From Oceanospirillaceae bacterium ASP10-02a (lineage in GTDB: Bacteria > Pseudomonadota > Gammaproteobacteria > Pseudomonadales > Balneatricaceae): DNA of 64,000 nt. The translations under genes and the position numbers were made by a program. This document shows, piece after piece, positions 10,032 through 27,316 of this stretch. Position 1 is the first letter of the stretch; the number at the start of each line of letters is the position of its first letter. The stretch spans positions 1 to 64,000 of the forward strand of contig CAJIZL010000005.1 of assembly GCA_905182035.1 (NCBI GenBank), written 5' to 3'. Below the pieces are notes generated by a model that saw only the letters and a list, made by a program, of their open reading frames with translations, was not told the origin of the DNA and did not search any database.

Positions 10032-10036
10032 GTTTG

Positions 10037-10110
10037 TTTATTGTCGATTTAGTGTCCTAGCTTTAATCATTTGAATGTTACTGTGGATAATATCAACCTG
10101 TATTCTATGA
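10037..10110 (+). promoter_or_regulatory. TGTCGAT promoter module, copy 1 (before mmgE/prpD)
   Basis: From TTATTGTCGATTTAGT (10038-10053) through TTTGAATG (10070-10077) to about 10110, this region aligns with the mttB promoter at 19147-19220 at roughly 70% identity by hand. GATase-type AraC regulators such as ArgR bind TGTCG-containing half-sites, so this is a likely operator for the regulator at 18094-19083. The ATG of the MmgE/PrpD gene follows at 10175. Confidence 0.65.
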
Positions 10111-10174
10111 GTGGTTTTTACAGCTAATTAACTACCCCATTATCTACCAATAGTATTAAAAAGGAGCTCGCCTT

Positions 10175-11506
10175 ATGCCAAGTAACCTTTCTGTCCGGCA
10201 GTTTTTATTAGATATTAGCTTTGACACTTTGCCATCAGCAGTCATTGAACAGGCAAAAGTTTGCTGTTATGACCTGCTTGGTGCGGCGGTAGGTGGCGGT
10301 CGTTCAGCCCCAGCATCCATCATTACCCGTCATGCGCAAGATCATTTTGCCGCAGGAGCCAACATTACTGCAGTTCAACCATTACTAGGTGGTGAAAGTA
10401 TAAGCCCTGTGGGGGCTGCCTTGGTGGGCGCAACTATGATTGACGCGTTAGATTGTCACGATGGACAGCGAGAAGTCAAAGGGCATATAGGTTGTAGCAT
10501 GCTGCCTAGCCTCATCGCTGTGCTAGAGTCCCAGTTGCGACCCGTGACGGGTCGTGAGCTAATTAGTTTGATTGTTGCTGGTTATGAAATAGGCACCCGG
10601 GCGGGGTTGGCATTGCATGGAACAGTGACTGATTATCATACTTCTGGTGCCTGGGGCGCGGTTAACTGTGCCGCATTAACGGCCCATGTTTTGGGTCTTA
10701 ATGAAGAACAATTCAATCATGCTGTGGGTATAGCTGAATATCATGGGCCACGCAGCCAGATGATGCGGAATATTGACCATCCTACAATGCTGAAGGATGG
10801 TTCTGGCTGGGGTGCTATGGCGGGCACCTCGGCGGCATATATGGCAGCTGAAGGCTTTACTGGGGCACCTGCCATTACTATTACTGCTGATGATGCAGCT
10901 GCCTATTGGCAGGATTTGGGCCAAAACTGGCAAATCCTTAATCAATATTTTAAACCTTACCCTGTATGCCGTTGGGCTCAACCAGCCGTTGCGGCTTGCT
11001 TAACGTTGCGCCTGAAGCATAATTTTGATCCGAGTCAGGTAGAGCAAATTACAGTGTGGACCTTTCATGAGGGCGCGCGATTATTTAGTGATGTGCCTAG
11101 TGATTCAGAGCAAGCTCAGTATGCCATCAGTTTTCCAATAGCCATGGCTGTTCTAAAAGGTGCTATTAGCGCTGACGATGTTTACAGCGGCTTTAACGAT
11201 GCCCAGGTACGAGACATGATTGGCAAAGTCACGTTAATGGAAGGTGCGGATTATAATGAGGTGTTTCCAGCTGAGCGCTGGGCCCATGCGCGTATACGTA
11301 TGGCTGACGGTACAGAAATGGTATCAGAGCCTCATGAAGCCTTAGGCGACCCTCATAAGCCTATGAGCAAAGAGCAATTTCAGGACAAGTACATTAACTT
11401 ATGTGAACCCGTGTGGGGCCTGCAAAAATCACAACAGGTGTTAGCCTATATTGAACATTTGGAAAAGGGTGATTTAGCTGGCTTGTTGGCCTTAATTCGC
11501 AGCTAA
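10175..11506 (+). CDS. MmgE/PrpD family protein
   Basis: This 443-residue protein starts at ATG 10175 with AAGGAG upstream. It shows the family hallmarks: the N-terminal helical domain (YDLLGAAVGG), DCHDGQREVKGHIGCSMLPSLIAV, KPYPVCRWAQPAVAA, and the C-terminal lid domain (VWTFHEGARLF, FPIAMAVLKG). Members include 2-methylcitrate dehydratase, cis-aconitate decarboxylase and a number of uncharacterised dehydratases or isomerases. The promoter module is shared with the mttB operon, so it probably acts in the same catabolic pathway. The last 4 bases overlap the convergent ABC ATPase gene. Confidence 0.88.
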   Translation: MPSNLSVRQFLLDISFDTLPSAVIEQAKVCCYDLLGAAVGGGRSAPASIITRHAQDHFAAGANITAVQPLLGGESISPVGAALVGATMIDALDCHDGQREVKGHIGCSMLPSLIAVLESQLRPVTGRELISLIVAGYEIGTRAGLALHGTVTDYHTSGAWGAVNCAALTAHVLGLNEEQFNHAVGIAEYHGPRSQMMRNIDHPTMLKDGSGWGAMAGTSAAYMAAEGFTGAPAITITADDAAAYWQDLGQNWQILNQYFKPYPVCRWAQPAVAACLTLRLKHNFDPSQVEQITVWTFHEGARLFSDVPSDSEQAQYAISFPIAMAVLKGAISADDVYSGFNDAQVRDMIGKVTLMEGADYNEVFPAERWAHARIRMADGTEMVSEPHEALGDPHKPMSKEQFQDKYINLCEPVWGLQKSQQVLAYIEHLEKGDLAGLLALIRS

Positions 11507-13584
11507 TTAGACAGCTGGATGACTGGAATCATAGCGCCTAAGAAGTCGTCCGTTAAATGGCATCTAAGCTCATGACCATCGGCCATTAACTTCATTGCTG
11601 GCAACTCCTTTTCACAAAGGTTATTAGCAACCTGTTGCTTGTGCTGGCAACGAGTTTGGAAAGGGCACCCTGATGGTGGGTTCATGGCCGAAGGAATATC
11701 ACCGTCCAAGACAATGTGTTTACGCTTAATGCTAGTATCAGCAATCGGCACCGCCGATAACAAGGCCTCAGTATAGGGGTGATAAGGAGGACTAAATACT
11801 TGGTCTGTGCTACCCATTTCTACCACATGACCCAAATACATGACCATCACTCTATCAGAGATATAGCGAACGATTGACAGGTCATGACTAATGAACAGCA
11901 TGGTGGTTTTATTTTTTCTTTGCAACTCCATTAACAGATCAGTTACAGCCGCTTGAACGGAAACATCTAACGCAGAAACTGGCTCATCGGCCACCACTAC
12001 TTGAGCGTTGCCAGCAAAGGCACGAGCAATACCCACACGTTGTTTTTGGCCACCAGATAGTTGGCGTGGCTTACGCAGGGCAAATTCTCGAGGCAGTTTG
12101 ACTAAATCTAATAGCCCCAACATTCTTTGCTCGCGGTCCTCCTCGTTGGTGCCAACCCTAAAGACTTCAAGGGCGCGTATGATTTGGCGGCCGACACTCA
12201 TGGATGGGTTAAGGGTATCAAATGGGTTTTGAAATACCATTTGAATGGACGACACAGACTCAACCTCACGGTCATGGATCAAGGTGTTTTGAATGTCCTC
12301 GCCCAGTAAGTTAGCAGTGCCTGCGCTAGCTTCCTCTAAACCCAGTAACACCTTTGCCAGAGTAGACTTGCCACAGCCAGACTCCCCAACAATGGCCAGG
12401 GTTTCTGATTCACGTGCTTCAAAGGAGATGCTCTCGTTGGCCTTAACGACACGCTTTTCCCCGCTACCAAACAAAGCGCTCGCAGCAACTTCATAGTATT
12501 TTTGTAGCTTATCAACCTTAAGCACCACTTCACCTATTTCGGTGGATTGCCTATCTGCAGCTGCTACTGGGGGGTTGAGCCAGTCTATTTGGTTGATTCT
12601 TGCACAGCGTGAGGCGTGGCTATGATCGTCTATCAAAGACAGCATGGAAATCTCATTCTGGCCACATGTTTCAGCATCATAATAATTACACCGAGGGCCA
12701 AAGTTACAGCCATTGGGGCGCTCATGGGGTAACGGGAAGTTACCCGGGATAGTGACCAAAGGACGGGCGTTTTTATCAGCACCGGGCAATGGAATTGAGC
12801 GGAACAAAGCTTGCGTATAGGGATGGCGCATGCGCTCAAATACTTTTTCAATAGGCCCGGCTTCTATAGCCTCACCTGAATACATGACACAAATGTCATT
12901 ACAGGTTTCCAGCACTAAACCAAGATTGTGGGAGATAAATAGCATTGAGGTGCCATACTTCTCACCTAACCCTTTGACTAGGTCAACGATGCCCGCTTCA
13001 ATAGTGACATCCAGCGCAGTGGTAGGTTCATCAAGGATCAGCAACGACGGTTTTGACATCAGCGCCATGGCGATGACAATGCGTTGCTGTTGGCCACCTG
13101 ATAATTGATGTGGGTAACTGTTTAAGATCCGTTCAGGGTCAGACAGTCGAACATCTTCCACCACTTGCATGGCCAGATCCCAGGCCTCTTTGGCAGAGCT
13201 CTGTTGATGGATCATGGGCACTTCCATGAGTTGCTTGCCGACTTTCATGGATGGATTCAAGGAAGCCATGGGTTCTTGATAAATCATGGCAATTTCAGAG
13301 CCACGCAAATGCCGCAGTTCTTCTTCGCTCATTGTGTTGAGCTCTCGGCCCTTAAATTTGATGCTGCCACCAACAATTTTGCCGTTTACTCCAAGGTCTT
13401 GCATCACGCCTAAAGCCACGGTGGATTTGCCGCAGCCAGACTCACCCACAAGACCCATAGCTTGGCCTTGCTCTACCACACAAGAGAAGTCCATCACTGC
13501 AGGAATTTCACCCAATCGAGTAAAGAAACTAATGGACAGGTTGTCTATTTCTAAAATAGGTCCATCGTAATCCCATTGTTGCAT
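11503..13584 (-). CDS. Oligopeptide-type ABC transporter, fused double ATPase
   Basis: This 693-residue protein contains two complete nucleotide-binding domains, equal to DppD and DppF fused. The first has Walker A GESGCGKST near residue 47, signature LSGGQQQR and Walker [13 protein letters not shown]. The second has GESGCGKST near residue 410, LSGGQKQR and VVVADEPVSALD. Each ends with the oligopeptide-family C-terminal extension containing Cys motifs (GCNFGPRCNYYDAETC; GCPFQTRCQH). It is the last gene of the minus-strand importer operon, 12 bp after the permease stop. Confidence 0.94.
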   Translation of the reverse strand: MQQWDYDGPILEIDNLSISFFTRLGEIPAVMDFSCVVEQGQAMGLVGESGCGKSTVALGVMQDLGVNGKIVGGSIKFKGRELNTMSEEELRHLRGSEIAMIYQEPMASLNPSMKVGKQLMEVPMIHQQSSAKEAWDLAMQVVEDVRLSDPERILNSYPHQLSGGQQQRIVIAMALMSKPSLLILDEPTTALDVTIEAGIVDLVKGLGEKYGTSMLFISHNLGLVLETCNDICVMYSGEAIEAGPIEKVFERMRHPYTQALFRSIPLPGADKNARPLVTIPGNFPLPHERPNGCNFGPRCNYYDAETCGQNEISMLSLIDDHSHASRCARINQIDWLNPPVAAADRQSTEIGEVVLKVDKLQKYYEVAASALFGSGEKRVVKANESISFEARESETLAIVGESGCGKSTLAKVLLGLEEASAGTANLLGEDIQNTLIHDREVESVSSIQMVFQNPFDTLNPSMSVGRQIIRALEVFRVGTNEEDREQRMLGLLDLVKLPREFALRKPRQLSGGQKQRVGIARAFAGNAQVVVADEPVSALDVSVQAAVTDLLMELQRKNKTTMLFISHDLSIVRYISDRVMVMYLGHVVEMGSTDQVFSPPYHPYTEALLSAVPIADTSIKRKHIVLDGDIPSAMNPPSGCPFQTRCQHKQQVANNLCEKELPAMKLMADGHELRCHLTDDFLGAMIPVIQLSN

Positions 13585-13596
13585 GATCCTGCTCCC

Positions 13597-14751
13597 TTAG
13601 TCTTTGAGTGACTGTTCGCGCAGGCCATCGGCCAACAGGTTGAGGCCCAGCACTAGCGACATTAATGCTAGGGCAGGAGGAATAGCTAGGTGTGGGTATA
13701 TGGATAAGAGTTTGCGGCCCTCGTTTATGGTCATACCCCAGTCTGGGCTTTCTGGGCTAACGCCTAGCCCAAAGAAACCCAAGGTGCCTAATAAAATAGT
13801 GATGTAGCCGATGCGTAAACAAAAATCCACAATCAAAGGCCCTCGTGCATTAGGTAGAATTTCCCACAACATAATATACCAAGGTCCTTCTCCGCGGGTT
13901 TCGGCTGCCGCTACATAGTCGCGAGTTTTAATGTCCAGAGTTAGGCCCCTGACAATACGAAACACCGTAGGTGAGTTAACAAATACCACTGCAACAAAAA
14001 TATTCAGCAGGTTAGGTTCCATATAAAAAACACCTAATGGATCCATATTAAAAGCCAGACCTGAATAGGCCCAAAAGCCCAATACTAGTGTGATGGCGAC
14101 ATAAATATTACGCTTCACAGGCTGGGTATAAAATCGAGATTGAAATAACACAACAAACAATATAATAGGAAATACGAACAGTACTGCAGCCAAATAAATA
14201 GGTACACCAGTTGAGCGAATTTCTGGTGTGACTAACAAGAAAAATAACAAAATTACTGGGAAGGCTAGCACTAAATTGGACAAGAAAGATAAGATCGTAT
14301 CCAACTTTCCAGATCTATAGCCGGCAGGTAGGCCTAAGGTGATCCCTACCATAAAGGCAAACACAGTAGCCGCTGGGGCAATAGTTAATACAGTGCGGCA
14401 GCCCATTACCACGCGAGAAAATATGTCACGGGCCAGGTTATCACCACCTAACAGGTAGAATGTACCTTCCACACCACGCACAGGAAAACCTATGCCTTTG
14501 TTTTTCATACCAGAAATTTGGGCTAAGGGGTCGTGGGTGATAATTAAATCAGCAAGGATAGCCGTTAATACCCAAAACAACACCAGTAGCAAACCCAAGG
14601 TGCCAACGCGGCTATCAAACAAGTGGCCATATAAGCCTAAGCGTTGTCGATAATAAGCAGAGATACTTAAAATTATGCCCATAGCAACCCATACAGGGAT
14701 TAACTGGGTAAAAATGCCAATGGTGATTTGAAGTGCAGTTAATGCTTCCAT
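13597..14751 (-). CDS. Oligopeptide-type ABC transporter permease (DppC-like)
   Basis: This 384-residue inner-membrane protein is longer than usual DppC (~300). It has an extra N-terminal hydrophobic segment, and a central insertion with hydrophobic stretches (IYLAAVLFVFPIILFVVLF; ITLVLGFWAYSGLAF). The permease loop TRDYVAAAETRGEGPWYIMLWEILPNARGPLIVDF carries the EAA-type motif that contacts the ATPase. It pairs with the permease at 14761 and the fused ATPase at 11503. Confidence 0.92.
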   Translation of the reverse strand: MEALTALQITIGIFTQLIPVWVAMGIILSISAYYRQRLGLYGHLFDSRVGTLGLLLVLFWVLTAILADLIITHDPLAQISGMKNKGIGFPVRGVEGTFYLLGGDNLARDIFSRVVMGCRTVLTIAPAATVFAFMVGITLGLPAGYRSGKLDTILSFLSNLVLAFPVILLFFLLVTPEIRSTGVPIYLAAVLFVFPIILFVVLFQSRFYTQPVKRNIYVAITLVLGFWAYSGLAFNMDPLGVFYMEPNLLNIFVAVVFVNSPTVFRIVRGLTLDIKTRDYVAAAETRGEGPWYIMLWEILPNARGPLIVDFCLRIGYITILLGTLGFFGLGVSPESPDWGMTINEGRKLLSIYPHLAIPPALALMSLVLGLNLLADGLREQSLKD

Positions 14752-14760
14752 CAGCGTGCC

Positions 14761-15801
14761 CTAATTGATACGAATACGTGGATTGAGGAATACATAGCCA
14801 ATATCTGAAATTAACTGTGTGATGAGTACCACGAATACCGCCACCATCGAGCAGGCTAACAAGAGGTCGATATCATTGTTGGACGCAGCCTGAACTAGCA
14901 GCCAGCCAAAACCTTTGTAGTTAAACAAGGTTTCTACAATTACCACGCCAGTAAGTAGCCAAGGGATTTGTAGCATGATCACTGTAAAGGGTGCGATTAA
15001 CGCATTGCGTAAAGCGTGTTTAAGCACGATGTTGCTAAAACTAACACCCTTTAAGCGTGCGGTTCGAATATATTGCGCTGTCATAACTTCAGCCATTGAG
15101 GCGCGAGTCATGCGCGCAATGTAACCCATTCCATAGAAAGCCATGGTCATCACTGGTAAAGTGAAATTGGCAATGGTGATCTCATCCATAGCAGAAGTCG
15201 AAGAGCCTTTAAACCATCTTAAGCCCACTGCTGAACTAGCAAATATCACTACAAAGATAACACCGGAGACATATTCCGGCGTTGCGGTGGTGAGGATAGC
15301 AAAAGTTGATAAGTTCCGATCCGTGCGTGAACCTTCTCGCATACCTGCCAGTACACCAATAATGAGCGCCATAGGCACCATCACTAACATCACAAATAGC
15401 ATTAACCAGCCTGTTAACCCAAGGCGTTTGCTAACTATGCTGGCAACATTGTCTTTAAATACTGTAGACCAACCCATGTCAGCCTGCAACACACCACAAT
15501 AGTTGGCAATGAGATCCACACCGGGTTTTACACAACGACCTAACGTTTTGCCATCTTCTCTGACAAACACAAAACCGGGTGTTACCCCTAACCATTCGCC
15601 ATAACGTACCAGTAGGGGCTGCTTATAACCGCGACTCTCCAGCCATTGTTCAACCTGTACGTCGGACATGCGCATACTGCCCTGAGTCTTGGCTAACTTC
15701 TCTAAATTGGGCTGTAAGTTGGTTAAGAAAAACACCAAAAAGGTTAGGCACAGAGCAGTCAATACCATCATGCCCGTTCGCTTAACAATAAATATCCACA
15801 T
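14761..15801 (-). CDS. Oligopeptide-type ABC transporter permease (DppB-like)
   Basis: This 346-residue permease has the standard N-terminal transmembrane helix followed by a periplasmic loop and about five more helices. The EAA loop is MAEVMTAQYIRTARLKGVSFSNIVLKHALRNALIAPFTV. The first periplasmic loop (LEKLAKTQGSMRMSDVQVEQWLESRGYKQPLLVRYGEW) is the usual DppB/OppB insert. It lies 9 bp before the DppC-like gene and ~100 bp after the substrate-binding protein gene, with a terminator hairpin in between. Confidence 0.93.
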   Translation of the reverse strand: MWIFIVKRTGMMVLTALCLTFLVFFLTNLQPNLEKLAKTQGSMRMSDVQVEQWLESRGYKQPLLVRYGEWLGVTPGFVFVREDGKTLGRCVKPGVDLIANYCGVLQADMGWSTVFKDNVASIVSKRLGLTGWLMLFVMLVMVPMALIIGVLAGMREGSRTDRNLSTFAILTTATPEYVSGVIFVVIFASSAVGLRWFKGSSTSAMDEITIANFTLPVMTMAFYGMGYIARMTRASMAEVMTAQYIRTARLKGVSFSNIVLKHALRNALIAPFTVIMLQIPWLLTGVVIVETLFNYKGFGWLLVQAASNNDIDLLLACSMVAVFVVLITQLISDIGYVFLNPRIRIN

Positions 15802-15833
15802 GTGCAGTCCTGGGATGACTAGGGCAGAGAGGT

Positions 15834-15867
15834 GATAAAAAAGAGCAGGCTACTAGGCCTGCTCTTT
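15834..15867 (-). terminator. Intrinsic terminator between binding protein and permease genes
   Basis: An 11-bp perfect stem AAAGAGCAGGC/GCCTGCTCTTT with a 6-base loop is followed on the minus strand by a run of T. It should partly terminate transcription after the binding-protein gene, giving more binding protein than membrane components. Confidence 0.85.
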
Positions 15868-15880
15868 AGAGAAAATTAGA

Positions 15881-15897
15881 GGGCCACAAAGTGGCCC
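15881..15897 (-). other. GC-rich hairpin just after the binding-protein stop
   Basis: GGGCCAC-AAA-GTGGCCC is a perfect 7-bp stem with a 3-base loop, 11 bp after the stop codon of the binding-protein gene. It probably blocks 3' exonuclease and stabilises the upstream message. Confidence 0.6.
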
Positions 15898-15907
15898 AAG
15901 TGTGGGT

Positions 15908-17560
15908 TTAAGACCACCACATTTTTTCTAGATGAAACTCAAACGCAGGATGCATTTCGGCATTCATTAGGCCTGGCTTGTTATGCCGATATAAAGAACG
16001 CCAATATGGCTGAATAATGACGCCTTCATCTTGCATAATAGCCTCGATCTTGGCCATGATTTTGCGGCGTTCATCGGCGTCAGGAACCGCCATAGCTTGT
16101 GATAACAAACTATCAAACTCTTTATTAGCGAAACCAGCTTCGTTCCAAGCTTCACCACTGCGGTAGGCTAGTGCCAACACCTGCACACCCAAAGGACGTT
16201 GATTCCAGTTGGTGGAGGAGAAGGGGTATTTTACCCAGTCATTCCAGAAGGTAGAACCTGGTAAAATGGTGCGCTTAACCTTAATGCCTGCTTGGCGCAA
16301 TTGGGCGGCCACGGCATCTGTGGTGTTGCGGCGCCAATCGTCGTCGATGGATATAAGCTCATGTTCATAATCCCCCATACCGGCTTCGTCCATGAGCGCT
16401 TTTGCTGCTGCACCATCAACCTTCTGGGCAGGCAAGGCTGCATACTCGGGATGAACTGGGCAAACGTGGTGGTTTTCTGCTGGTGTGCCATGGCCAGAGT
16501 AGCCAAGTTCTAAACATATATTATTGTCAACAGCCATCGCTAAGGCCTGACGTACGCGTTTATCAGCATAGGGCTTAATGCCATCCACTTCAGCCTGCTG
16601 ATTAGGACGGATGACTATAGTAGCTGCCGTCACTGCTGACGTTTTTATCCAACCTAAGTCATCAAACATGCCGATAAATTCACCAGCAACGTCGTAGGTT
16701 ATATCAAATTCATCCGCGTCAGCGCCGGCTACAATAGCACCGTAGTCGGTGCCATAGTCGATCATTTCAATACGGTCAAGGTATGCCCCTTCGCCCCACC
16801 ATGAATGGGACTCATTGCGTACCAACACGGCCTTAACACCCACCTCGAGACTTTCAGGAGAGTATGGGCCAGTACCTATGGCATTGCCTATCATATTATC
16901 ACTGTCATGGCTTGAATGGACAATAGCTGCAGGGTAGTCAGTCATGCCTGGAATAATAGAAATATCTGGAGCCAAAAGATTGAGCTGCACGGTATGGCTA
17001 TCCACCACTTCAATGGCTCCTGCTCGTGCTTTGCCAGTATCGGTATCTATTAAGGAATTCATACGACCAGCCATGGAGTTGCCTTCCACGCTCTTGTCAC
17101 ACCAACCAATCATATTGCGAGCCACGTCATCGGCAGTGAAGGCATCGCCATTATTCCAGGTTACGCCCTTGCGCACGTTAAGTGTGAACACAGTAGCATC
17201 GTTATTGGCTGACCAACTTTCGAGCAATTGGCCTTCCATAGTGCCATCAGTATTAATACGTACCAGGTATTCTAACCAACCACGGCTGAAGTTGGCTATT
17301 TGGGACCAGTCATAGGTGCGTGGGTCTTTCATGGCCCGGACTTCCGTTTGATAACGCAAGGTGCCACCCATTTTAGGCGTGCCGGCCATGGCCATTGGCG
17401 CGACTAAACCAATCATGCTGTATGCCGCAATTGCGCTGGCACCCAAGGCAGAGGCACGTACAAAAAATTCTCGACGTGAAAGTTGGCCTTGTAAGTATTC
17501 ATTTTTATACATGTCAACAACGGGATGCGTTGCTTTATCTATGTCAGTGGACTTCGTCAT
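15908..17560 (-). CDS. Oligopeptide-type ABC substrate-binding protein, Tat-exported
   Basis: I chose ATG 17560 (GGAGAG upstream) over the longer frame, giving 550 residues. The N-terminus carries a twin-arginine signal: SRREFF at residues 28-33, then a long hydrophobic stretch ending APMAMA. The mature protein is SBP_bac_5 type ([54 protein letters not shown]). Oligopeptide-type binding proteins also carry opines, nickel, sugars and quaternary amines, so the ligand is open. The inverted-repeat arm at 17848-17970 lies upstream, linking it to the mttB regulon. Confidence 0.93.
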
Positions 17561-18093
17561 TCTATACTCTCCGGTTGTTATTGTTACGGACGGCAAGGTC
17601 CGGTTTTGTAGTCTAATGCTAGACTTTTTCACAGCTGAATATGATAGTTTAGCCTATTACTCAGAGGCATCAATGCACGGTGGTAGGCTAATCTATAAAT
17701 ACCAGATCTGACTACATTTGGCTCAAACCCATTCGCTTCATTTATTTCTTAGAGCTCACGTACTCTCCAAGTCTCTTCAAGTTCTACAGATCATTTGCAC
17801 CCTTGTCAAATTTGCACACTTACCAAATAAGTATCTATGGCAGCACATTACGGCTTATTAAATTAACCTGAGGCATAATACATAGCCTCTCAAGTAATGG
17901 GTTTATACCATACACGATAGCATTCAAGAGATTACAAACTGGAGACTGAATCGACAATAAGTGGAATTAGCATTTTCATAATGATATCCCATCTTTTTTA
18001 TAATGTACGAAAAATCTACATCCGCCAACAATAACGCCTTGATTAGTCCCTGGTGGATAATAAATAATTTGGTTCTTGCTAAAACTGAGACTT
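17561..18093. other. Intergenic region between importer operon and AraC gene
   Basis: This 533-bp stretch lies upstream of the importer operon and downstream of the regulator gene. It contains the left arm of the inverted repeat (17848-17970) and otherwise no recognisable gene. The distance from the TGTCGAT element to the importer start is ~390 bp, unusually long for a promoter-proximal operator. Confidence 0.6.
17848..17970 (-). repeat. Inverted-repeat arm L: decayed copy of the mttB promoter and start
   Basis: Read on the minus strand, this segment matches 19138-19261 at roughly 85% identity with one gap. It includes TTATTGTCGATTCAGT, TTGAATGCTATCGTGTA, GAGGCTAT, GCCTCAGGT and the sequence around the mttB start, where ATGAGCCGTA reads ATAAGCCGTA. 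It therefore copies promoter, ribosome-binding site and the first codons of mttB with the start codon lost. It could still serve as operator and promoter for the importer operon that it faces. Confidence 0.8.
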
Positions 18094-19083
18094 TCAACCT
18101 CCTAAAGTAGGACTAGGTAATTTGTCTCTTGTACGTTCTTGCCGAGGTGATATTAAAAATTTTGATCGGTAGCATTTTGCCAAATAGGAAGTCGAATTAA
18201 AACCACAGGCGGTAGCAATAGCAAAGGTAGAAAGACTGGTTTGTTGTAAAAGTAGTTGGGCTTTGTTGAGTCTTAAATCTAGGTAATACTGCGCAGGCCT
18301 TAGGCCGAAATGATGTTTAAATAGTCGCTCCAACTGACGCAAAGATAAGTTTGATTTGCTGGCAATCTGTGCTTGAGACATAGGATCTTCAGTGCAGCTC
18401 TGCATTAACTCAATAGCTTTGATTAGCGCTGGGTGATGAATGCTTAATCTAGTTTGGGTAGCCATGCGCTGGTGTGCATGGGCATCACGGATGCTAGGGT
18501 GAATGCATTGCTCTGCCACGTCCTTTGCCAGTTTCAGGCCATGTTGTTGGGTGATGAGTTGGAGCATCATATCAAGCCCTGATAAGCCGCCTGAGCATGT
18601 CATGAAGTGGGTATCCATTTCATACAATTCACCAGTAATATTTAACAAGGGGAACTCTTCCTTAAAACTGTCAATGTTTTCCCAGTGGATGGTGCAGGGG
18701 CTTTGGTTTAGTAATTTGGCTCGAGCCAGCAACAAACTGCCAGTTGACGTAGAGCCTAAGGTGATGGAGAGGCGTGATAAGCGCCTCAACCATCGGCTGA
18801 GGACTGGGTCATCATGGTTTTCTACATCGATGCCTGCTACAACGATCAGGGCATCTAAATCTTCTGTATCTGCCATCTCACGCGTGGCAGCAACGTCTAT
18901 ACCGTTGCTTGCTCTCACCGGTAGGTAGTCTTTGCTGTAAAATGACCACTCATACAAATTACACTTGCTAAGCCGGTTAGCTATTCTCAGCGGCTCAACA
19001 GCAGCTGACATGGAGAGCATGGAGAACTGAGCGATAAGGAAAAATCCAATCTGCGTTGGATTACTGGCGTAGTTTGGTTGCAT
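18094..19083 (-). CDS. GlxA-type AraC-family regulator (GATase-like domain)
   Basis: This 329-residue protein starts at ATG 19083 with AGAGGA upstream. The N-terminal DJ-1/PfpI-like domain (IGFFLIAQFSMLSMSAAVEPLRIANRL; DALIVVAGIDVEN; TGSLLLARAKLLN) senses a ligand in this class. The C-terminal AraC double HTH covers residues ~225-320 (QAQIASKSNLSLRQLERLFKHHFGLRPAQYYLDLRLNKAQLLL; IATACGFNSTSYLAKCYRSKF). Characterised relatives (ArgR, GbdR, CdhR, SouR) respond to arginine, glycine betaine, carnitine and sarcosine. Its gene lies between the two inverted-repeat arms, so it is the obvious activator of both flanking operons. Confidence 0.93.
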   Translation of the reverse strand: MQPNYASNPTQIGFFLIAQFSMLSMSAAVEPLRIANRLSKCNLYEWSFYSKDYLPVRASNGIDVAATREMADTEDLDALIVVAGIDVENHDDPVLSRWLRRLSRLSITLGSTSTGSLLLARAKLLNQSPCTIHWENIDSFKEEFPLLNITGELYEMDTHFMTCSGGLSGLDMMLQLITQQHGLKLAKDVAEQCIHPSIRDAHAHQRMATQTRLSIHHPALIKAIELMQSCTEDPMSQAQIASKSNLSLRQLERLFKHHFGLRPAQYYLDLRLNKAQLLLQQTSLSTFAIATACGFNSTSYLAKCYRSKFLISPRQERTRDKLPSPTLGG

Positions 19084-19137
19084 GTTGAATCCTCTGACAA
19101 GCTTAGGGTATCGGTCAATTTATGTTTATACAACTTT

Positions 19138-19261
19138 TAATTCCGCTTATTGTCGATTTAGTTTCTTTTTTTTAATCTTTTGAATGCTATCGTGTACGGT
19201 ACAAACCCGTTACTAAGAGGCTATTTATTAGGCCTCAGGTGAAATTAATGAGCCGTATTGC
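19138..19261 (+). repeat. Inverted-repeat arm R: mttB promoter, operator and start
   Basis: This contains TTATTGTCGATTTAGT (19148-19163), TTTTGAATGCTATCGTGTA (~19177-19195), a possible -10 GGTACAAA and the AGGTGA ribosome-binding site before ATG 19248. It is repeated inversely at 17848-17970, and its upstream ~74 bp recur in direct orientation at 10037-10110. The two TCG-containing half-sites about 36 bp apart are candidate binding sites for the AraC-type regulator. Confidence 0.78.
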
Positions 19262-20807
19262 TGGTCGCCACCGCAGAGTCAAACAAGAAACAATTAATCC
19301 ATGTGCTATTCCCCAGCTCGAGCGACAGGTAAAACGTAACCGCTTTGCACCTATCGCAGCCTTGGAACCAGAGCAAGTGGAGCTTATCCACCAAGCGTCG
19401 ATGGACATACTTGAACAGTTGGGCATCGAAGTTATGGGTCAAGAAGCTCTAGACTTATTCAAGCAGGCTGGGGCAGACGTTGATGATGCTGGTGTGGTGC
19501 GAATGGATCGCGCGCTGGTAATGGAATGTATCAGCAAAGCGCCTGCGCAATTCACCCTAACCCCACGTAACCCAGACAATGCCTTGGAGATTGGATCCAA
19601 CGTGATCCATTTTGGGTTGACCTCTGGCCCCCCCAACGTGCACGACTGCGTGAATGGTCGCCGCCTTGGTAACTTTGCAGATTATGAGCACATGATCCGC
19701 TTTGGACAGTACTTTAATGTTATCGATTTTTTTGGCAACCAGGCTTTGGCACCAACGGATTTACCACCTAATACTCGGCATCTAGACACCACTTTTGCCA
19801 CTCTAACTCTAGCTGATAAGGTGTTTCTTGCCCAAGGCATTGGTGCAGGCCGTGTCAAAGATGCAGTTGCCATGAACGCAATTGCCAATGGCATGAGCTT
19901 GCAAGAGCTGGCTCAAAATCCCGCTACCATGACCAATATTAATATTAACTCACCACGCAAATTGGATGACAGTATGGCCTATGGTGCTATGCAAATGGCA
20001 AAAATGGGTCAGGCCGTCACCGTTACTCCATTTACCCTCATGGGGGCGATGACACCAACCACCATGGCTGGTGCTTTAGCACAACAAAATGCCGAGGCAT
20101 TGCTGGGCATTGCCTTGGTGCAGTTAACCAAAGCAGGTGCTCCAGTCGTTTATGGTGGTTTTACTTCAAACGTAGATATGCGTTCTGGCGCTCCAGCCTT
20201 TGGCACACCAGAAAATTGCCTAGCCAACATGGCGAGTGGACAAATGGCACGACGATATAACTTGCCTTATCGGACGAGTGCCTGCAACGCCTCTAATGCA
20301 GTGGATGGTCAGGCGGTATATGAAACCCAAATGGCTTTGTGGGGCTCTGTCATGGGTCATGGAAATTTGATTTATCATGCCGCCGGTTGGTTAGAAGGTG
20401 GTTTGGTCGCGTCGTTTGAAAAAATTGTTATGGATTGTGAGATGCTCCAGCACATGGCAGTAATGTTGCAACCCCTAAAAATTGACCGCATAGAAATTGG
20501 TATTGAAGCGATGGATGAAGTGGGGCCTGGTGGGCATTTCTTTGGTTCCAGTCACACCATCGAACGCTATAAAACCGCTTTTTATCAACCCTTTTTGAGC
20601 GACTGGAAAAATCACGAAAGCTGGGTTGAAGCTGGGTCTAAAGATGCTACTATGCGGGCTACAGAAATTTGGCAGAAAATTTTAGCTGAATTCGAACCGC
20701 CAAAACTTGATTTGTCTCGGCGTGAAGAACTTGAAGCCTATGTGGCTAAGCGCAAAGAAGAGCTGGGTAGGGCTGAACCTATGCTGGAACCGATCGAAAT
20801 AGATTAG
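19248..20807 (+). CDS. MttB-superfamily (trimethylamine methyltransferase-like) protein
   Basis: I used ATG 19248 (AGGTGA six bases upstream) rather than GTG 19239; the product is 519 residues. Family features include HQASMDILEQLGIEVMGQEALDLFKQAGADVD, the HFGLTSGPPNVHD segment, GAMTPTTMAGALAQQNAEALLG and MGHGNLIYHAAGWLEGGLVASFEKIVMDCEML. There is no in-frame amber codon, so it is the non-pyrrolysine branch. Characterised members (MtgB, MtpB, MtcB) demethylate glycine betaine, proline betaine and carnitine to a corrinoid protein. No corrinoid protein or reactivase is in the window, so the methyl acceptor is unknown. It leads an operon with the oxygenase and aldolase genes. Confidence 0.92.
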   Translation: MSRIAGRHRRVKQETINPCAIPQLERQVKRNRFAPIAALEPEQVELIHQASMDILEQLGIEVMGQEALDLFKQAGADVDDAGVVRMDRALVMECISKAPAQFTLTPRNPDNALEIGSNVIHFGLTSGPPNVHDCVNGRRLGNFADYEHMIRFGQYFNVIDFFGNQALAPTDLPPNTRHLDTTFATLTLADKVFLAQGIGAGRVKDAVAMNAIANGMSLQELAQNPATMTNININSPRKLDDSMAYGAMQMAKMGQAVTVTPFTLMGAMTPTTMAGALAQQNAEALLGIALVQLTKAGAPVVYGGFTSNVDMRSGAPAFGTPENCLANMASGQMARRYNLPYRTSACNASNAVDGQAVYETQMALWGSVMGHGNLIYHAAGWLEGGLVASFEKIVMDCEMLQHMAVMLQPLKIDRIEIGIEAMDEVGPGGHFFGSSHTIERYKTAFYQPFLSDWKNHESWVEAGSKDATMRATEIWQKILAEFEPPKLDLSRREELEAYVAKRKEELGRAEPMLEPIEID

Positions 20808-20840
20808 CATCGCCTTATATAGACAGTTTTAGGAGTTTTT

Positions 20841-21533
20841 ATGTCGCGCATTACCTCCACTGAAGCAGATGCCAAGCAAATGATAACGTGGCTTGAAAGC
20901 AAGTATGACACTGAGTCGGTTGCCAGTTTTAAGGCTGGCCCAGGTATTCAAAAGTTGCAATTAAAGTTTGATATCGACAAGTTACGCCAGTGTTATCATG
21001 ACATGCAAGATCAACTGGAAGACTTAGGTTCAGGTTTTCATGTAATGGCCCTAACGCGGCGCCCGGGTGTCGAGCACCCCACTCCCGAGGACAACTGCGG
21101 TCGGTTTTGGACTAGAGTGGATGACAGCTATGCTGAAGTCCCTCGAGACATTATGGTTGATGAGTCAGCGTATAGTGAGTTTAATCCACTATTTGCAGAC
21201 ACTTATTTAGCCGAAGTTTATGAGCAGCTTATCGCTCGATTTCCCATTGGTCGTATGAGAGTGTTAGGGAAAGATCCTTATAATTGCAATTCTTGGCATC
21301 GAGATCCAGAGCCGCGTTTGCACATTCCTATTATCAGTAACCCCGGCTCTTTATTTGTCGTCAACCACCATTGCACTCACTTACCTGCCGATGGTTCGGT
21401 TTATTTTACCGATACTCGTGGCTATCACACGGCGTTAAATGGGGGTGAAGAATCTAGAGTACATATTGTGGCAGCGCTACCTTATGCTGGGCAGCAGGTC
21501 AGTGACCTACAAGCGTTAGGAAAACAGGTCTAA
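20841..21533 (+). CDS. Asp/Asn-hydroxylase-like 2-oxoglutarate/Fe(II) oxygenase
   Basis: This 230-residue protein has ATG 20841 preceded by AGGAG. The iron-binding facial triad is visible as H153-x-D155 in NSWHRDPEPRLHIPI and the distal H196 in GYHTALNGG; R206 in ESRVHIV is placed to bind 2-oxoglutarate. The arrangement is that of the aspartyl/asparaginyl beta-hydroxylase group (Asp_Arg_Hydrox). Members hydroxylate the beta carbon of amino acid residues or free amino acids. Position between a methyltransferase and a threonine aldolase suggests it makes a beta-hydroxy-alpha-amino acid for aldol cleavage. The substrate is inferred, not shown. Confidence 0.85.
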   Translation: MSRITSTEADAKQMITWLESKYDTESVASFKAGPGIQKLQLKFDIDKLRQCYHDMQDQLEDLGSGFHVMALTRRPGVEHPTPEDNCGRFWTRVDDSYAEVPRDIMVDESAYSEFNPLFADTYLAEVYEQLIARFPIGRMRVLGKDPYNCNSWHRDPEPRLHIPIISNPGSLFVVNHHCTHLPADGSVYFTDTRGYHTALNGGEESRVHIVAALPYAGQQVSDLQALGKQV

Positions 21534-21536
21534 ATT

Positions 21537-22628
21537 ATGACATCACACTACCCATCGGCAGAAACACGAAGCTCTATCAGCAGTCCGATTACCATTGATC
21601 TGCGCAGTGATACCGTTACGCAGCCCAGCCATGCCATGCGCCAGATTATGGCAGACGCGCAAGTGGGGGATGATGTGTATGGTGATGACCCCAATGTTAA
21701 CGCCCTCGAGCACGAAACTGCCGAGTTATTAGGCAAACAATCGGGCCTATTTTTACCCAGTGGCACTATGAGTAACTTAGCTGGCGTGTTGGCCCATTGC
21801 CAGCGGGGTGAAGAGGTTGTGGTGGGTGATAAATACCATATTAGTTGTGATGAAGCGGCTGGTGTAGCAGTGCTGGGCAGTGTGGCTATGCACGCACTGC
21901 AAACGGATGCATTCGGGCGTTTTGACCTTGAACAACTAAATGCTGCTGTGAAACCAAATGATTACCACTGTCCTATGACGCGGCTACTGTGTCTAGAGAA
22001 CACAGTGGGGGGCTGCATTCAAGATCAAGATCATATTGATGCTTTGGTTGACTGTGCCAAATCACATGGGCTTGCTACACACATGGATGGCGCTAGATTA
22101 CTTAATGCTGCAGTAGCCCAAAATGTGCCTCCAGCTCGGCTAGTTCAGTCTATTGACACAGTATCCTTGTGCTTATCTAAAGGCTTAGGTGTGCCTTTGG
22201 GCTCGGTGTTAGTGGGCCCAAGTATAGTCATTGAAAGAGCACGTAGGCTGCGTAAAATGCTAGGTGGGGGAATGCGTCAAGCAGGTATTATTGCAGCAGC
22301 GGGCAGGTATGCCTTACAGCACAATGTGGAGAGGTTAGCGCAGGATCATAAACGAACACAGGAACTCGCCACAGCACTTGAAGGCCTGCAAGGGTTACAT
22401 TTTGACCGGGCTCGAGTACAAACTAATATGTTGTTTTTGCAATCGCCACAAATGCCCGCCTTAGCCAGTTATCTTGCACAGCGTGGTATTGCCATCACCG
22501 CTATTGGGGAAAGTGCTCGTATTGTTTTGCACATGCAAATCGATGATGCTGCTCTGCAGCAGATTACTGAGGCGATACAAGGTTTTTTTACCACGAGTAA
22601 CTTACCCCAGTATGTAGAGCAGGTGTAG
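21537..22628 (+). CDS. Threonine aldolase-family PLP enzyme
   Basis: This 363-residue protein starts at ATG 21537, three bases after the oxygenase stop. Fold-type I features are LRSDTVTQPSHAM, VGDDVYGDDPNVNALE, LFLPSGTMSNL, the PLP-contacting Asp in HMDGARLLNAA (D184), and the Schiff-base lysine K215 in SLCLSKGLGVPLGS. The family cleaves beta-hydroxy-alpha-amino acids to glycine and an aldehyde; fungal members also cleave 3-hydroxytrimethyllysine in carnitine synthesis. Coupling to a hydroxylase fits the same chemistry used catabolically here. The N-terminal ~18 residues are extra compared with short family members. Confidence 0.93.
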   Translation: MTSHYPSAETRSSISSPITIDLRSDTVTQPSHAMRQIMADAQVGDDVYGDDPNVNALEHETAELLGKQSGLFLPSGTMSNLAGVLAHCQRGEEVVVGDKYHISCDEAAGVAVLGSVAMHALQTDAFGRFDLEQLNAAVKPNDYHCPMTRLLCLENTVGGCIQDQDHIDALVDCAKSHGLATHMDGARLLNAAVAQNVPPARLVQSIDTVSLCLSKGLGVPLGSVLVGPSIVIERARRLRKMLGGGMRQAGIIAAAGRYALQHNVERLAQDHKRTQELATALEGLQGLHFDRARVQTNMLFLQSPQMPALASYLAQRGIAITAIGESARIVLHMQIDDAALQQITEAIQGFFTTSNLPQYVEQV

Positions 22629-22804
22629 ACTAAAGGCTCAACATATCAACCATCGTAAAAATTTTAACTCTAAGTTAAGGCCTAATGCACGGGCTCACTG
22701 AGGTCTGATTGATACGGCAAAGCTACTAAAGGTTTGCCTATTACCTCATTATCATGATAATACTAACTGCTGCATCATTAACCTGAAGTCTGTTTTGACG
22801 ATAT

Positions 22805-23479
22805 TTGACTATGCAAACTCTCGCTGTAATCGACGATGATTTAGAAATCCGCCAGCTACTGAGCCAATACCTGAGCCAACAAGGTTTTAAAGTGGTGGCC
22901 TTTGCAGATGGTGAAAAATTCTTACAGGCTGATATGACGCAGTTTGCTTTAGCGGTGTTGGATGTTGGTTTGCCCGGTATAGACGGGCTCGATGTGTGCC
23001 GCAGCTTGCGACAAACGTCCAGCTTACCGGTAATCATGCTCACTGCAGCTAGTGATGACCTAGATCGTATTTTGGGTCTAGAGCTAGGTGCGGATGATTA
23101 TATGGGTAAACCTTTTAATCCCCGGGAATTATTAGCCCGTATCAAGGCCCTGTTGCGCCGAATGCAGGTGCAACAACCCAAGCCAGATTCAGATGCCCCC
23201 TTGCTGCATATAGATGTGCTCAAACGCTGTGTTAGCTATGCTGGCACCAACTTGCCATTGACTGGTGCAGAGTTTGATTTACTCAATTTGCTGTACCAAC
23301 ATCAAGGTGAGGTGCTTAGTCGTGATGCTATTTGCCAAGTTTTGCATGGCCGCAATGCACAGCCTTTCGACCGCTCTATAGATACCAGTATTAGTCGCTT
23401 GCGCAATAAGCTCAATCAGGTGGCAGGAGATAGTATTCAAAATGTGCGTGGCAAAGGTTATGTATTGGTGCTTGCATGA
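22805..23479 (+). CDS. OmpR-family response regulator (GltR-like)
   Basis: This 224-residue protein has a receiver domain with acidic pocket D8-D10, phosphoacceptor D51 in LAVLDVGLPGIDGLD and the conserved Lys in MGKPFNPREL. The winged-helix DNA-binding domain lies at ~130-224 (LTGAEFDLLNLLYQHQGEVLSRD, DTSISRLRNKL, VRGKGYVL). The stop overlaps the kinase start by 4 bp. Position before a kinase and a hexose-type ABC operon is the same as gltR in Pseudomonas, so control of that importer is likely. Confidence 0.93.
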   Translation: MTMQTLAVIDDDLEIRQLLSQYLSQQGFKVVAFADGEKFLQADMTQFALAVLDVGLPGIDGLDVCRSLRQTSSLPVIMLTAASDDLDRILGLELGADDYMGKPFNPRELLARIKALLRRMQVQQPKPDSDAPLLHIDVLKRCVSYAGTNLPLTGAEFDLLNLLYQHQGEVLSRDAICQVLHGRNAQPFDRSIDTSISRLRNKLNQVAGDSIQNVRGKGYVLVLA

Positions 23480-24924
23480 GCTTTGTGACGGGTCTATGGC
23501 TCAGGCTTATACCTAATACTGTTATGGCACGAGTCACATTGGTGCTTTTTTTAGGAATCCTGATCGCCCAGGTGTTTGGCACATGGCTATGGGTTTCGCA
23601 ACTTAAGACCACAGAACACAACCGGTTAATCGAAGTCTCTCAAACCATGGGCTCTCGTATTGGGCAGACCGTAGAGTTTTTCAAAAAGTTACCTGATCAA
23701 TATCGTCATATTGTTTTAGATCAATTGAGGGATATGGGGGGCACGCGATTTTTTGTTTCTGTAAACTCTCAGTACATCGACTTATTGAACATTCCTGAGA
23801 CAGATTTTTCTCAATTGGTGCGGCAACAACTTAGTGCCAGTATTGTTGCTCAAATGGGCCAGACCAAAGGACTGGATATTCAATTTGTTAATTTTGACGA
23901 CTTGAAAATACTTTCTGGTTCTAATTTAATGGTAGATTTGCCACCTAAATGGAAGCGCTTTGCCCTAATAGAGCCTAGTGATGCCAGTCCAGTGGCTGTA
24001 GTGCAACTGCCTGTGGCTAATGAGTGGATATACTTAGCGGCGGTTATCCCCGAAGGCCATATGCTCTCGGGTGTAACCTGGCTTACCAGCGAACGTATGT
24101 TGAGTATTGGTCTAGTGTCTTTAACAGTGTTCTTGCTAACCTTGTTACTGGTGCGCTGGGTGGTGCGGCCACTACGGTTGTTAGCCAGACAAGCAGAAAC
24201 CATTGGCAAAGGACGAAATCCCCGTCATATGCGCGAGCAAGGCTCCAGCGAAATGGTAGCTACCATCCGCGCCTTCAATGCCATGGTTGGGCGTATTCAA
24301 AAATTTACTGGCGACCGAGAACGACTATTTGCCGCCATTTCACATGACCTTAAGACACCTCTTACCCGCGCCCGCTTGCGGGCTGAAATGATTTCAGATA
24401 CCGACCAAAAACTGGCCTTAATAGGTGATTTAGAAAATCTAGAGACCATGGTTAAAGGCAGTTTACAGATGATGAAGGATGATGCCATCCACGAAAATGC
24501 TGAGCGTATTGACCTGAGTCAATTATTGTTGGGTCTAGCGGCACAGAACCAAATATATGGTTTGCCTATCGAGCTAGATATCCAGCCGGGTTTGATCATA
24601 GATGGCCGCAGCATGGCCCTGCAACGCTTATTCAGCAACCTAATTGATAATGCCCTTGCCTATGGTCGAGCGGTAAGTATTATCGCTATCGCCAATGCTC
24701 AAGGTACAGTGATTAGTATTTTGGACCCAGGTCCAGGTTTAAGCGATGCCGACAAAGCTCGAGTTTTTGAACCTTATTACCGCATTAATCAGAAGCCCAG
24801 TGATGATCACGTTGGGCTTGGATTAGGGATTGCGCGCAGTATTGCCAATCTGCATGGTGGTGAATTAGAGCTCAAGGATCGCCGCGGTGGTGGTTTAATG
24901 GTTGAGGTTTATTTCCCTTCGTAA
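23476..24924 (+). CDS. Sensor histidine kinase (GtrS-like)
   Basis: This 482-residue membrane kinase has a first transmembrane helix at ~18-40, a periplasmic sensor domain, and a second helix at ~205-228 (LSIGLVSLTVFLLTLLLVRWVV). A HAMP segment follows (RPLRLLARQAETIGKG), then the H-box AAISHDLKTPLTRARLRAEM near residue 290. The ATPase domain shows N-box LIDNALAYG, G1 LDPGPGLSD and G2 VGLGLGIARSI. It is translationally coupled to the response regulator. In Pseudomonas the equivalent kinase senses 2-ketogluconate or 6-phosphogluconate; ligand identity here is unproven. Confidence 0.93.
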   Translation: MSFVTGLWLRLIPNTVMARVTLVLFLGILIAQVFGTWLWVSQLKTTEHNRLIEVSQTMGSRIGQTVEFFKKLPDQYRHIVLDQLRDMGGTRFFVSVNSQYIDLLNIPETDFSQLVRQQLSASIVAQMGQTKGLDIQFVNFDDLKILSGSNLMVDLPPKWKRFALIEPSDASPVAVVQLPVANEWIYLAAVIPEGHMLSGVTWLTSERMLSIGLVSLTVFLLTLLLVRWVVRPLRLLARQAETIGKGRNPRHMREQGSSEMVATIRAFNAMVGRIQKFTGDRERLFAAISHDLKTPLTRARLRAEMISDTDQKLALIGDLENLETMVKGSLQMMKDDAIHENAERIDLSQLLLGLAAQNQIYGLPIELDIQPGLIIDGRSMALQRLFSNLIDNALAYGRAVSIIAIANAQGTVISILDPGPGLSDADKARVFEPYYRINQKPSDDHVGLGLGIARSIANLHGGELELKDRRGGGLMVEVYFPS

Positions 24925-25023
24925 CCTTTTGTCACACTTCCCCACGTTATGACACTTTGCCGTGTATACACTGCCATACACCGGAGTGTGACTGCCGGAT
25001 AATAAAACTAACGAGGAACTCAC

Positions 25024-26271
25024 ATGAAAACTAAATTAACAGGCCTAGCCTTAGCCACTATGATGGCTGTAGCGCCGAGTGCACAAGCAGGCGAAGTAGA
25101 AGTATTACATTGGTGGACCAGTGGTGGTGAAGCCACTAGTGTAGCCTTTTTAAAGAAGCAATTGGCTGAATCTGGTGTTGATTGGGTTGATTTTGCCGTT
25201 GCTGGTGGTGGTGGTGAAAGTGCCATGACGGTATTAAAATCCCGCGCTATTTCTGGCAATTCACCTACAGCAGCCCAGATTAAAGGCCCATCCATTCAAG
25301 AATGGGGTGAGCTAGGTTTCTTGTCTAGCATCGATGATGTTGCAAAGGCGAATAACTGGGATGAGATTTTGCCAGAAGTTGTGTCTGACGTAATGAAGTA
25401 CAATGGTGAATACGTAGCTGCACCAGTGAACGTGCATCGTGTTAACTGGTTGTGGGCTAACCCAGAAGTATTCCGCAAAGCTGGTGCTACTATCCCAACT
25501 ACTTGGGATGACTTTATGGTGCAAGCTCAGAAGTTAAAAGATGCAGGTTACATTGCTTTAGCACATGGCGGCCAAGCTTGGCAGGATGCCACTGTATTCG
25601 AAGCTGTAGTATTGGGTGTTGGCGGTGCTGATTACTACAATAAGGCTTTTGTACAGGCAGATATGAATGCCCTTAACAGTGCTACCACCAAAGAAGTGTT
25701 TGAAACCTTTGGTCAACTCCGCCAGTTTGTTGATATCAACTCCCCTGGCCGTGACTGGAACTTAGCTACTTCTATGGTAATCAAGGGTGAAGCTGGTATG
25801 CAAATCATGGGTGACTGGGCGAAGGGCGAATTCAAGGTTGCTGGGAAGAACCCTGGTACAGACTACGTTTGTGTCGCAGCTCCAGGTACTTCAGGTGCAT
25901 ATACCTTTAACGTTGACTCATTTGCCTTCTTTAACCAAAGTGATGCTGAAAGTACTCAGGCTCAAAAAGTTATGGCTAAAGAAATCTTAAGCACAGACTT
26001 CCAACGTGTATTTAACCTTAACAAAGGTTCAATCCCAGCACGTTTAGGTATGGCACGTACAGAGTTTGACTCTTGTGCTCATGATTCTATGGACGCCTTT
26101 GTTGCTAGTTCTGCTTCAGGCAGCCTAGTACCAAGTTTCGCCCATGGCATGGCCGTTTCAGAAGCAATTTCTGGCGCTATCTATGACTCTGCCACGCAGT
26201 TCTTTAACTCTGATGACAGTGCCTCTGAAGGTGTAGCTCAGCTTGTAGCAGCAGTTGCTGCTGCTAAGTAA
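25024..26271 (+). CDS. Hexose-type ABC substrate-binding protein (GtsA-like)
   Basis: This 415-residue protein has a Sec signal peptide (cleavage after AQA, residue 22). The mature protein is of the SBP_bac_1 type: VEVLHWWTSGGEATSVAFLKKQL, SPTAAQIKGPSIQEWGELG, VPVNVHRVNWLWANPEVF-like segments and MVIKGEAGMQIMGDWAKGEF. Two Cys (YVCVAAPG, FDSCAHD) may form a disulfide as in Pseudomonas glucose-binding proteins. It begins the importer operon and is followed by a hairpin. Confidence 0.92.
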   Translation: MKTKLTGLALATMMAVAPSAQAGEVEVLHWWTSGGEATSVAFLKKQLAESGVDWVDFAVAGGGGESAMTVLKSRAISGNSPTAAQIKGPSIQEWGELGFLSSIDDVAKANNWDEILPEVVSDVMKYNGEYVAAPVNVHRVNWLWANPEVFRKAGATIPTTWDDFMVQAQKLKDAGYIALAHGGQAWQDATVFEAVVLGVGGADYYNKAFVQADMNALNSATTKEVFETFGQLRQFVDINSPGRDWNLATSMVIKGEAGMQIMGDWAKGEFKVAGKNPGTDYVCVAAPGTSGAYTFNVDSFAFFNQSDAESTQAQKVMAKEILSTDFQRVFNLNKGSIPARLGMARTEFDSCAHDSMDAFVASSASGSLVPSFAHGMAVSEAISGAIYDSATQFFNSDDSASEGVAQLVAAVAAAK

Positions 26272-26278
26272 AAGTAGC

Positions 26279-26316
26279 ATCATAGTCATTATACGGTTAA
26301 TGCCGTAATCTATGAT
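26279..26316 (+). terminator. Attenuator-like hairpin after the sugar-binding protein gene
   Basis: ATCATAG (26279-26285) pairs with CTATGAT (26310-26316), with an inner TACGG/CCGTA stem, followed by TTTTG. It probably limits read-through to the permease genes or stabilises the upstream message. Confidence 0.6.
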
Positions 26317-26443
26317 TTTGTTATTGTGAGGTTAGCGCAGTGATCCAATACCTAGGGTGATGGATTGCTGCATGCCCTAGGCCTTCGCAAGGATGGCTTA
26401 GGCCTCGCAATGGCACATTTCTAAAATCTTATTGAGCTAACTC

Positions 26444-27316
26444 ATGTTCGATTATCTCGAAAAACAATTACCCAAACTAATCATGGCTCCTACCGCTATT
26501 GTTATGTTGGTTTGTATGTATGGTTTCATCGGCTGGACTGCGGTGTTGTCGTTCACTAAAAGCCGTATGTTGCCCCAGTGGGAATTTGTTGGTTGGGCAC
26601 AGTACGAGCGGTTATTTGCTAACCCACGCTGGCACGTCGCACTCGATAACCTACTCGTGTTTACCCTGTTATTTATTATTATTGCCTTATTATTAGGGCT
26701 TATGTTGGCGATTTTATTAGATCGCAATATTCGTAACGATGGTGCTTTACGCACCATCTATCTGTATCCCATGGCAGTGTCTTTTATTGTTACAGGCACA
26801 GCTTGGAAATGGATTCTCAATCCGGGTTTAGGCATCGAAAAAATGGTGCGTGATCTAGGCTTTACTGATTTTGAATTTCGTTGGTTGGTGGAGCCAGATA
26901 TGGCCATCTATACCATCGTTATCGCTGCCGTCTGGCAGTCTAGTGGATTTGTTATGGCCATGTTCTTAGCTGGCCTTAGAGGGGTTGATGACAGCTTGAT
27001 TAAAGCTGCTCAAATGGATGGCGCGTCGACCTTCCGCACCTATTGGCACATTATTTTGCCCGTCATGCAGCCAGTCTTTTTTGGTTCTGTAGTCATCCTA
27101 AGCCATATTGCCATTAAGAGTTTTGACCTGGTTCAGTCCCTCACTGGGGGTGGCCCTGGATATGCCTCTGATCTGCCCGCCACCTTCATGTATACCCACG
27201 CGTTTAGTCGTGCCCAAATGGGTCTAGGTGCTGCCAGTGCGATGGTGATGCTCGCCGGTGTGATGGCGATTATTGTGCCTTATCTCTACTCTGAGTTGCG
27301 GGGTAAAAAATCATGA
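26444..27316 (+). CDS. Sugar ABC transporter permease (GtsB-like)
   Basis: This 290-residue, roughly six-helix inner-membrane protein is of the MalF/UgpA type. The EAA loop is DDSLIKAAQMDGASTFRTYWHIILPVMQPVF. Further matches are SFDLVQSLTGGGPGYASDLPATFMY, typical for monosaccharide permeases of this class. The end overlaps the next permease by 4 bp. The 170-bp gap from the binding-protein gene holds the hairpin and a second GC-rich imperfect repeat (GCCCTAGGCC / GGCTTAGGCC). Confidence 0.94.
   Translation: MFDYLEKQLPKLIMAPTAIVMLVCMYGFIGWTAVLSFTKSRMLPQWEFVGWAQYERLFANPRWHVALDNLLVFTLLFIIIALLLGLMLAILLDRNIRNDGALRTIYLYPMAVSFIVTGTAWKWILNPGLGIEKMVRDLGFTDFEFRWLVEPDMAIYTIVIAAVWQSSGFVMAMFLAGLRGVDDSLIKAAQMDGASTFRTYWHIILPVMQPVFFGSVVILSHIAIKSFDLVQSLTGGGPGYASDLPATFMYTHAFSRAQMGLGAASAMVMLAGVMAIIVPYLYSELRGKKS

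Follow-up and report, generated by a model that had tools for sequence, protein, structure and literature searches.

The gene for a GbdR-like AraC-family regulator in the 64-kb window (the whole stretch of DNA that was analysed, 64,000 nucleotides) is enclosed by the two arms of an inverted repeat, which appear to be two copies of one regulated promoter; the copy on the importer side probably recruits an ABC importer to GbdR-type control. Recruitment of a gene to a regulon is usually credited to point mutations that create an operator or to mobile elements.

Pairwise alignment of the two arms finds 122 of 148 ungapped columns identical (82.4%), with three gap columns, over ~150 bp, which bears out the original prediction of a ~120-bp inverted repeat with an identity, estimated by hand, of roughly 85%. 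The coordinates first assigned to the arms, 17848-17970 and 19138-19261, denote the same pair and fall a little short on its upstream side. The local score of arm against arm is 88.5, as compared to 22.5 for the best of 300 mononucleotide shuffles, and elsewhere in the window the sole other clear score, 33-38, belongs to a third copy located 5′ of mmgE/PrpD. A repeat search independently recovers the arm pair (I1, 94 nt at 81%; I2, 45 nt at 87%), and BLAST inside the genome's own assembly returns the left arm at E 7e-33 together with the third copy (Table 1). Because the left arm is also found in an independent assembly, that of the related genome G090, it is not an assembly artefact.

The homology begins 5′ of the TTGTCGAT element and continues through the promoter and a leader with its Shine-Dalgarno sequence to about codon 7 of mttB. 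Common to both arms are TTGTCGATT(T/C)AGT, TTGAATGCTATCGTGTA, the leader, the Shine-Dalgarno sequence (CAGGT) and, 3′ of the start, AGCCGTA. The alignment thereby agrees with the earlier description of a shared TGTCGAT element, ribosome-binding site and first mttB codons, in which the ATG of mttB is replaced by ATA in the left arm. A search of 17000-20000 for a riboswitch or other known structured RNA in Rfam yielded sub-threshold chance matches only. A hairpin in the leader by the Shine-Dalgarno sequence, GAGGC...GCCTC, folds no better than shuffles (z −0.2 to −1.2), and compensatory change, looked for in seven species, was seen in 0 pairs.

As had been predicted, each arm faces outward, with the regulator gene in the middle. 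To the right of the arms lie mttB and a gene for a threonine-aldolase-like enzyme; to the left lie the family-5 ABC importer operon and then mmgE/PrpD. The regulator has the broad GbdR-like AraC layout, namely a DJ-1/PfpI domain (PF01965, 28.6 bits) followed by an AraC helix-turn-helix (PF12833, 66.7 bits). Its closest NCBIfam model is GbdR (NF052371), to which it scores 314.9 bits, short of the 480-bit equivalog cut-off; the second GbdR-like gene of the genome, on contig C13, scores 324.3 bits and is also under 480. Between mttB and the aldolase gene, 20841-21533 encodes a conserved 230-aa protein without a Pfam or NCBIfam match, whose histidine layout leaves the impression of a β-hydroxylase-type enzyme that might feed the threonine-aldolase-like enzyme.

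Table 1. Positions of the repeat arms, their regulatory elements and the surrounding genes in the window (own genome, G000)
Feature	Position	Strand	Evidence
Left arm, the copied promoter block, directed towards the importer operon	17838..17986	-	82% identity to 19121-19270; also in G090, half in G102
Right arm, parental operator-promoter-leader-start of mttB	19121..19270	+	Found 5′ of mttB in seven species of the genus
Fossil start codon, ATA for the ATG of mttB	17856..17858	-	Sequence and alignment
Putative composite operator and extended -10 (TGTCGATTCAGT...TGCTATCGT), left arm	17914..17956	-	Pattern match; 18/19 conserved columns kept
Putative composite operator and extended -10, right arm	19151..19193	+	Pattern match
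Third putative composite operator and extended -10, 5′ of mmgE/PrpD	10042..10084	+	BLAST E 1.8e-6, pattern match; kept in G090, G102 and G091
GbdR-like AraC-family regulator, DJ-1/PfpI and HTH_18	18094..19083	-	Pfam; NCBIfam GbdR model
mttB-family methyltransferase	19248..20807	+	PF06253 E 1e-194; TIGR02369 303 bits, under the cut-off of 525
Solute-binding protein of the importer (SBP_bac_5), encoded first in the operon	15908..17563	-	PF00496 E 9e-54
Remaining importer operon: two permeases and a fused double ATPase	11503..15801	-	ORFs; synteny in G090, G102 and G096
MmgE/PrpD-family gene under the third operator copy	10175..11506	+	PF03972/PF19305
Sigma-70-type promoter of the importer, TTGACA-N17-TAGAAC	17781..17809	-	97.6% identity between G000 and G090 over 17770-17810; present in G102 and G096

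The core common to these sites was delimited from 12 arms, with the left arms left out of the set: 19 of 43 columns are kept in at least 11 of the 12, with the outline TGTCGA(T)TTAGT ... ATGyTAnnnT. The first part looks like an operator half-site and the second like an extended −10. The composite pattern TGTCGNNTNNGT-N14-22-ATGYTANNNT is restricted to the cluster, as all of its 14 matches in 15 congeneric genomes fall there, and the reversed pattern has one match. The genes behind these 14 sites are mttB, mmgE and those of two kinds of importer, family-5 and, in G091 alone, family-3. While the distal TGTCG site is invariant in the 14 copies, a second half-site is recognisable only in the mttB copy of G096 and, one base closer, in the left arm of G090. 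Around the third copy of the window, similarity extends more widely than the core, over 10026-10120. The original prediction had seen the two arms, both of which are real, and had overlooked this third copy and the local regulon. The half-site TTGTCGATTTAGT taken alone and searched genome-wide with two mismatches gives fewer matches than its reversed control, and is therefore uninformative for a regulon search.

Several sites in relatives were noted alongside the pattern. The family-3 ABC importer of G091 (L052 4040-7883) replaces the family-5 importer, bears the same operator/promoter, and adjoins an arginine-deiminase-family gene and an intact mmgE. In another genus, G016 carries a 25-bp operator match of 96% identity (L056 6046-6070) ~260 bp 5′ of a BCCT-type transporter gene, which adjoins genes resembling a dimethylglycine catabolism/electron-transfer set. 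A 35-bp match in G072 was discarded, as it lies inside a coding frame.

The relatives compared are marine Oceanospirillaceae/Pseudomonadales MAGs. An orthologue of the regulator at the level of at least 80% is present in six genomes of the genus, the own genome counted. The mttB-side arm is found in all six and additionally in G097, and thus in seven species, whereas the importer-side arm is found in three: intact in G000 and G090, and partial in G102. In G102 the leader half (GAGGCTATATATGGGGCCTCAGGT) is kept and the operator half is replaced by ~1.3 kb; in G096 the same importer adjoins the regulator with no arm. In a maximum-likelihood tree, which is small and approximate as to the attachment within the right arms, the intact left arms form one group with a support of 81, beside the right arms of their own species. 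Their branches measure 0.12 and 0.27, as compared to 0.02-0.03 for the right arms of the same species. The wider distribution of the right arm, the fossil start, and the monophyly of the left arms together establish mttB to importer as the direction of copying, and the simplest reading is that the right arm was the source of a single duplication, which took place before G000, G090 and G102 diverged.

The ~1.3 kb of G102, in the gap between regulator and importer (L051 9626-11340), holds a broken mmgE fragment and the gene for a TauD-family dioxygenase related to trimethylaminoethylphosphonate and γ-butyrobetaine dioxygenases. The joint of the insertion lies inside the left arm, and a second, intact mmgE lies 3′ of the importer operon. 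In G097 (L055), mttB has the operator with no adjacent regulator orthologue and a different gene upstream.

The divergence between G000 and G090 allows the parts of the left arm to be compared. Four-fold sites differ by 39-46% in araC, mttB and oppB and by 19% in the gene for the solute-binding protein. Within the left arms, the fossil start region, which provides an internal neutral control, differs by 46% (54% identical), the neighbouring spacer by 44%, and the operator/−10 part by 23%. At the conserved columns the two left arms differ in 2 of 19, where ~42% would be expected from four-fold sites (binomial p = 0.003), and at the variable columns in 11 of 24; the left arms retain 36 of 38 conserved-column cells as compared to 32 of 48 variable ones (p = 0.001). 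These tests rest on gapped alignments, and because the sites are few and the sets of columns were defined only once the arms were known, they provide moderate evidence, in keeping with an operator-promoter that is retained as its cargo decays.

A further promoter, TTGACA-N17-TAGAAC, lies in the interval that separates the importer gene from the left arm. The 41 bp from 17770 to 17810 contain a single difference between G000 and G090, and no other non-coding part of the region is as well conserved. A consensus promoter scan flagged neither this promoter nor either arm; the scan demands T at the last −10 position, and TAGAAC ends in C. Since this promoter is nearly invariant and is present in the arm-less G096, the importer most likely had a promoter of its own, independent of the arm, before the arm arrived. 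It follows that the left arm would be at most an added, regulated promoter. The proposed reuse of a complete promoter consequently stands as an inverted duplication with a fossil start, but not as the statement that the arm is the importer promoter.

This proximal promoter also raises the question as to whether the left arm is needed at all. The near-invariance of the former could make the latter superfluous, most arms have a degenerate proximal half-site, and the operator half has been lost from G102. The left arm might accordingly be a non-functional relic, a chance segmental duplication that decays neutrally, with the importer relying on TTGACA-N17-TAGAAC alone as it must in G096; the several-fold faster evolution of the left arms relative to the right arms points the same way. 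However, both intact left arms keep the conserved operator/−10 columns, while spacer and start drift approximately neutrally, and a relic is therefore considered unlikely, though it is an explanation to be taken seriously.

The arms are predicted to be GbdR-type operators, an assignment supported by family knowledge and by distribution: it draws on the published site architecture, on a site at contig C13, and on the occurrence of the motif. The half-sites of CdhR read GGTCGC with a 15-bp spacer, and the sites of GbdR, SouR and ArgR are very similar (PMC5806209). The GbdR-like gene of C13 is divergent from a sarcosine-oxidase-like gene whose upstream region has TGTCGG-N15-AGTCGT, a site of the same architecture. 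The left arm of G090 (L050 4554-4596) has a consensus-like second half-site, GGTCGTC, which is absent from the parental right arm and resembles the site 5′ of the sarcosine-oxidase-like gene. Given this resemblance, the similar type of site at the promoter neighbouring the C13 gene, and the mttB arm of G097, whose assembly has no orthologue of the local regulator, the arms could be operated by the C13 regulator rather than by the flanking one, or by both. Yet the composite pattern occurs in 6 of 6 genomes with an orthologue of the local regulator and in 1 of 9 without (Fisher p = 0.0014), despite widespread paralogues of ~55% identity in the genus, which makes a role for the C13 regulator rather improbable.

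Two further readings concern the origin and the geometry of the repeat. As the homology extends into mttB codons and mttB paralogues exist elsewhere in the genome, the left arm could be the 5′ remnant of a deleted second, inverted mttB gene instead of a promoter-only copy. The left intergenic regions of G000, G090 and G102, however, contain no coding similarity past codon ~7, and the other mttB-family genes are just 28-43% identical, unlike the arm, so that this origin has little probability. The suggestion that recombination between the arms could invert the regulator gene and so act as a switch has nothing but geometry in its favour (~150-bp inverted repeats ~1.1 kb apart) and is very hard to credit: the regulator is unrearranged, being divergent from mttB in 6 of 6 genomes that carry it and codirectional with the importer wherever the two adjoin, the arms share no exact run longer than 17 bp, none of the ORFs of at least 120 aa listed in 8000-28000 stood out as recombinase-like, and the arms would still face outward after flipping.

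The preferred reading, recruitment of the importer by a copied promoter, suggests the following history. The parental copy would drive mttB from a predicted GbdR-type AraC activator site and extended −10, the activator most likely being encoded by the regulator gene that the arms enclose. In the ancestor of the three species, an inverted copy of the ~150-bp block from the operator to codon ~7 of mttB was placed beyond the regulator, 5′ of an ABC importer operon that most likely already owned a sigma-70 promoter. There the copy would most likely act as a second, activator-dependent importer promoter, as a result of which importer, mttB and mmgE/PrpD would share a response to one inducer, probably a quaternary or methylated amine. 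The copied start and codons, being useless, decayed; two species retained operator and −10, and the third lost them. In this history, regulator binding, a working left arm and the kind of inducer are predictions from sequence. It is conceivable, and put forward tentatively, that genes enter the local regulon in this genus mainly when an entire operator-promoter block is copied from one of them to another, with mmgE and the family-3 importer of G091 as probable further cases. The cargo would then decay, while the operator would be retained or, as with the second half-site gained by the left arm of G090, even improved.

The genomes compared display the parent promoter and its copy, a relative that lacks the arm and has the older importer promoter, another in which the copy has decayed, and the fossil start. 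The succession of changes that made up a single rewiring step thus becomes readable and testable, and the cluster would offer a small, clear case of a pathway rewired by copying an existing switch.

Among known systems, invertible DNA switches likewise have inverted repeats flanking a segment. Here, by contrast, the arms have diverged (82%), no recombinase is seen nearby, relatives show no inverted form, and the segment is a gene and not a promoter. The GbdR, CdhR, SouR and ArgR circuits of P. aeruginosa (PMC5806209) are similar in possessing an AraC-family regulator with a DJ-1/PfpI-like domain, GTCG half-sites, and control over an importer and quaternary-amine catabolic genes, the regulator being divergent from the catabolic operon. 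The present system differs from them in that its regulator scores under the GbdR cut-off, the proximal half-site is degenerate, and the operators within the cluster are recognisable as copies of each other. Promoter propagation and mobile promoters have been described in prokaryotes (Matus-Garcia et al. 2012, as cited in PMC8049555 and PMC5906472), and the copying of existing promoters is discussed in PMC5906472 as a known evolutionary process. Unlike mobile promoters, which form a dispersed family, the three copies here all lie within 10 kb, and no mobile element was seen. As in promoter propagation, an existing promoter has been copied 5′ of a non-homologous gene, from mttB to the importer, with a shorter copy at mmgE. 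The usual form of that process differs in that the copy here is a predicted activator-controlled promoter that was inverted and travelled ~1.3 kb without leaving its catabolic cluster. What the comparison of these genomes reveals is a real, datable promoter duplication in a cluster that appears to be of the quaternary-amine catabolic type, and an instance of a known process.
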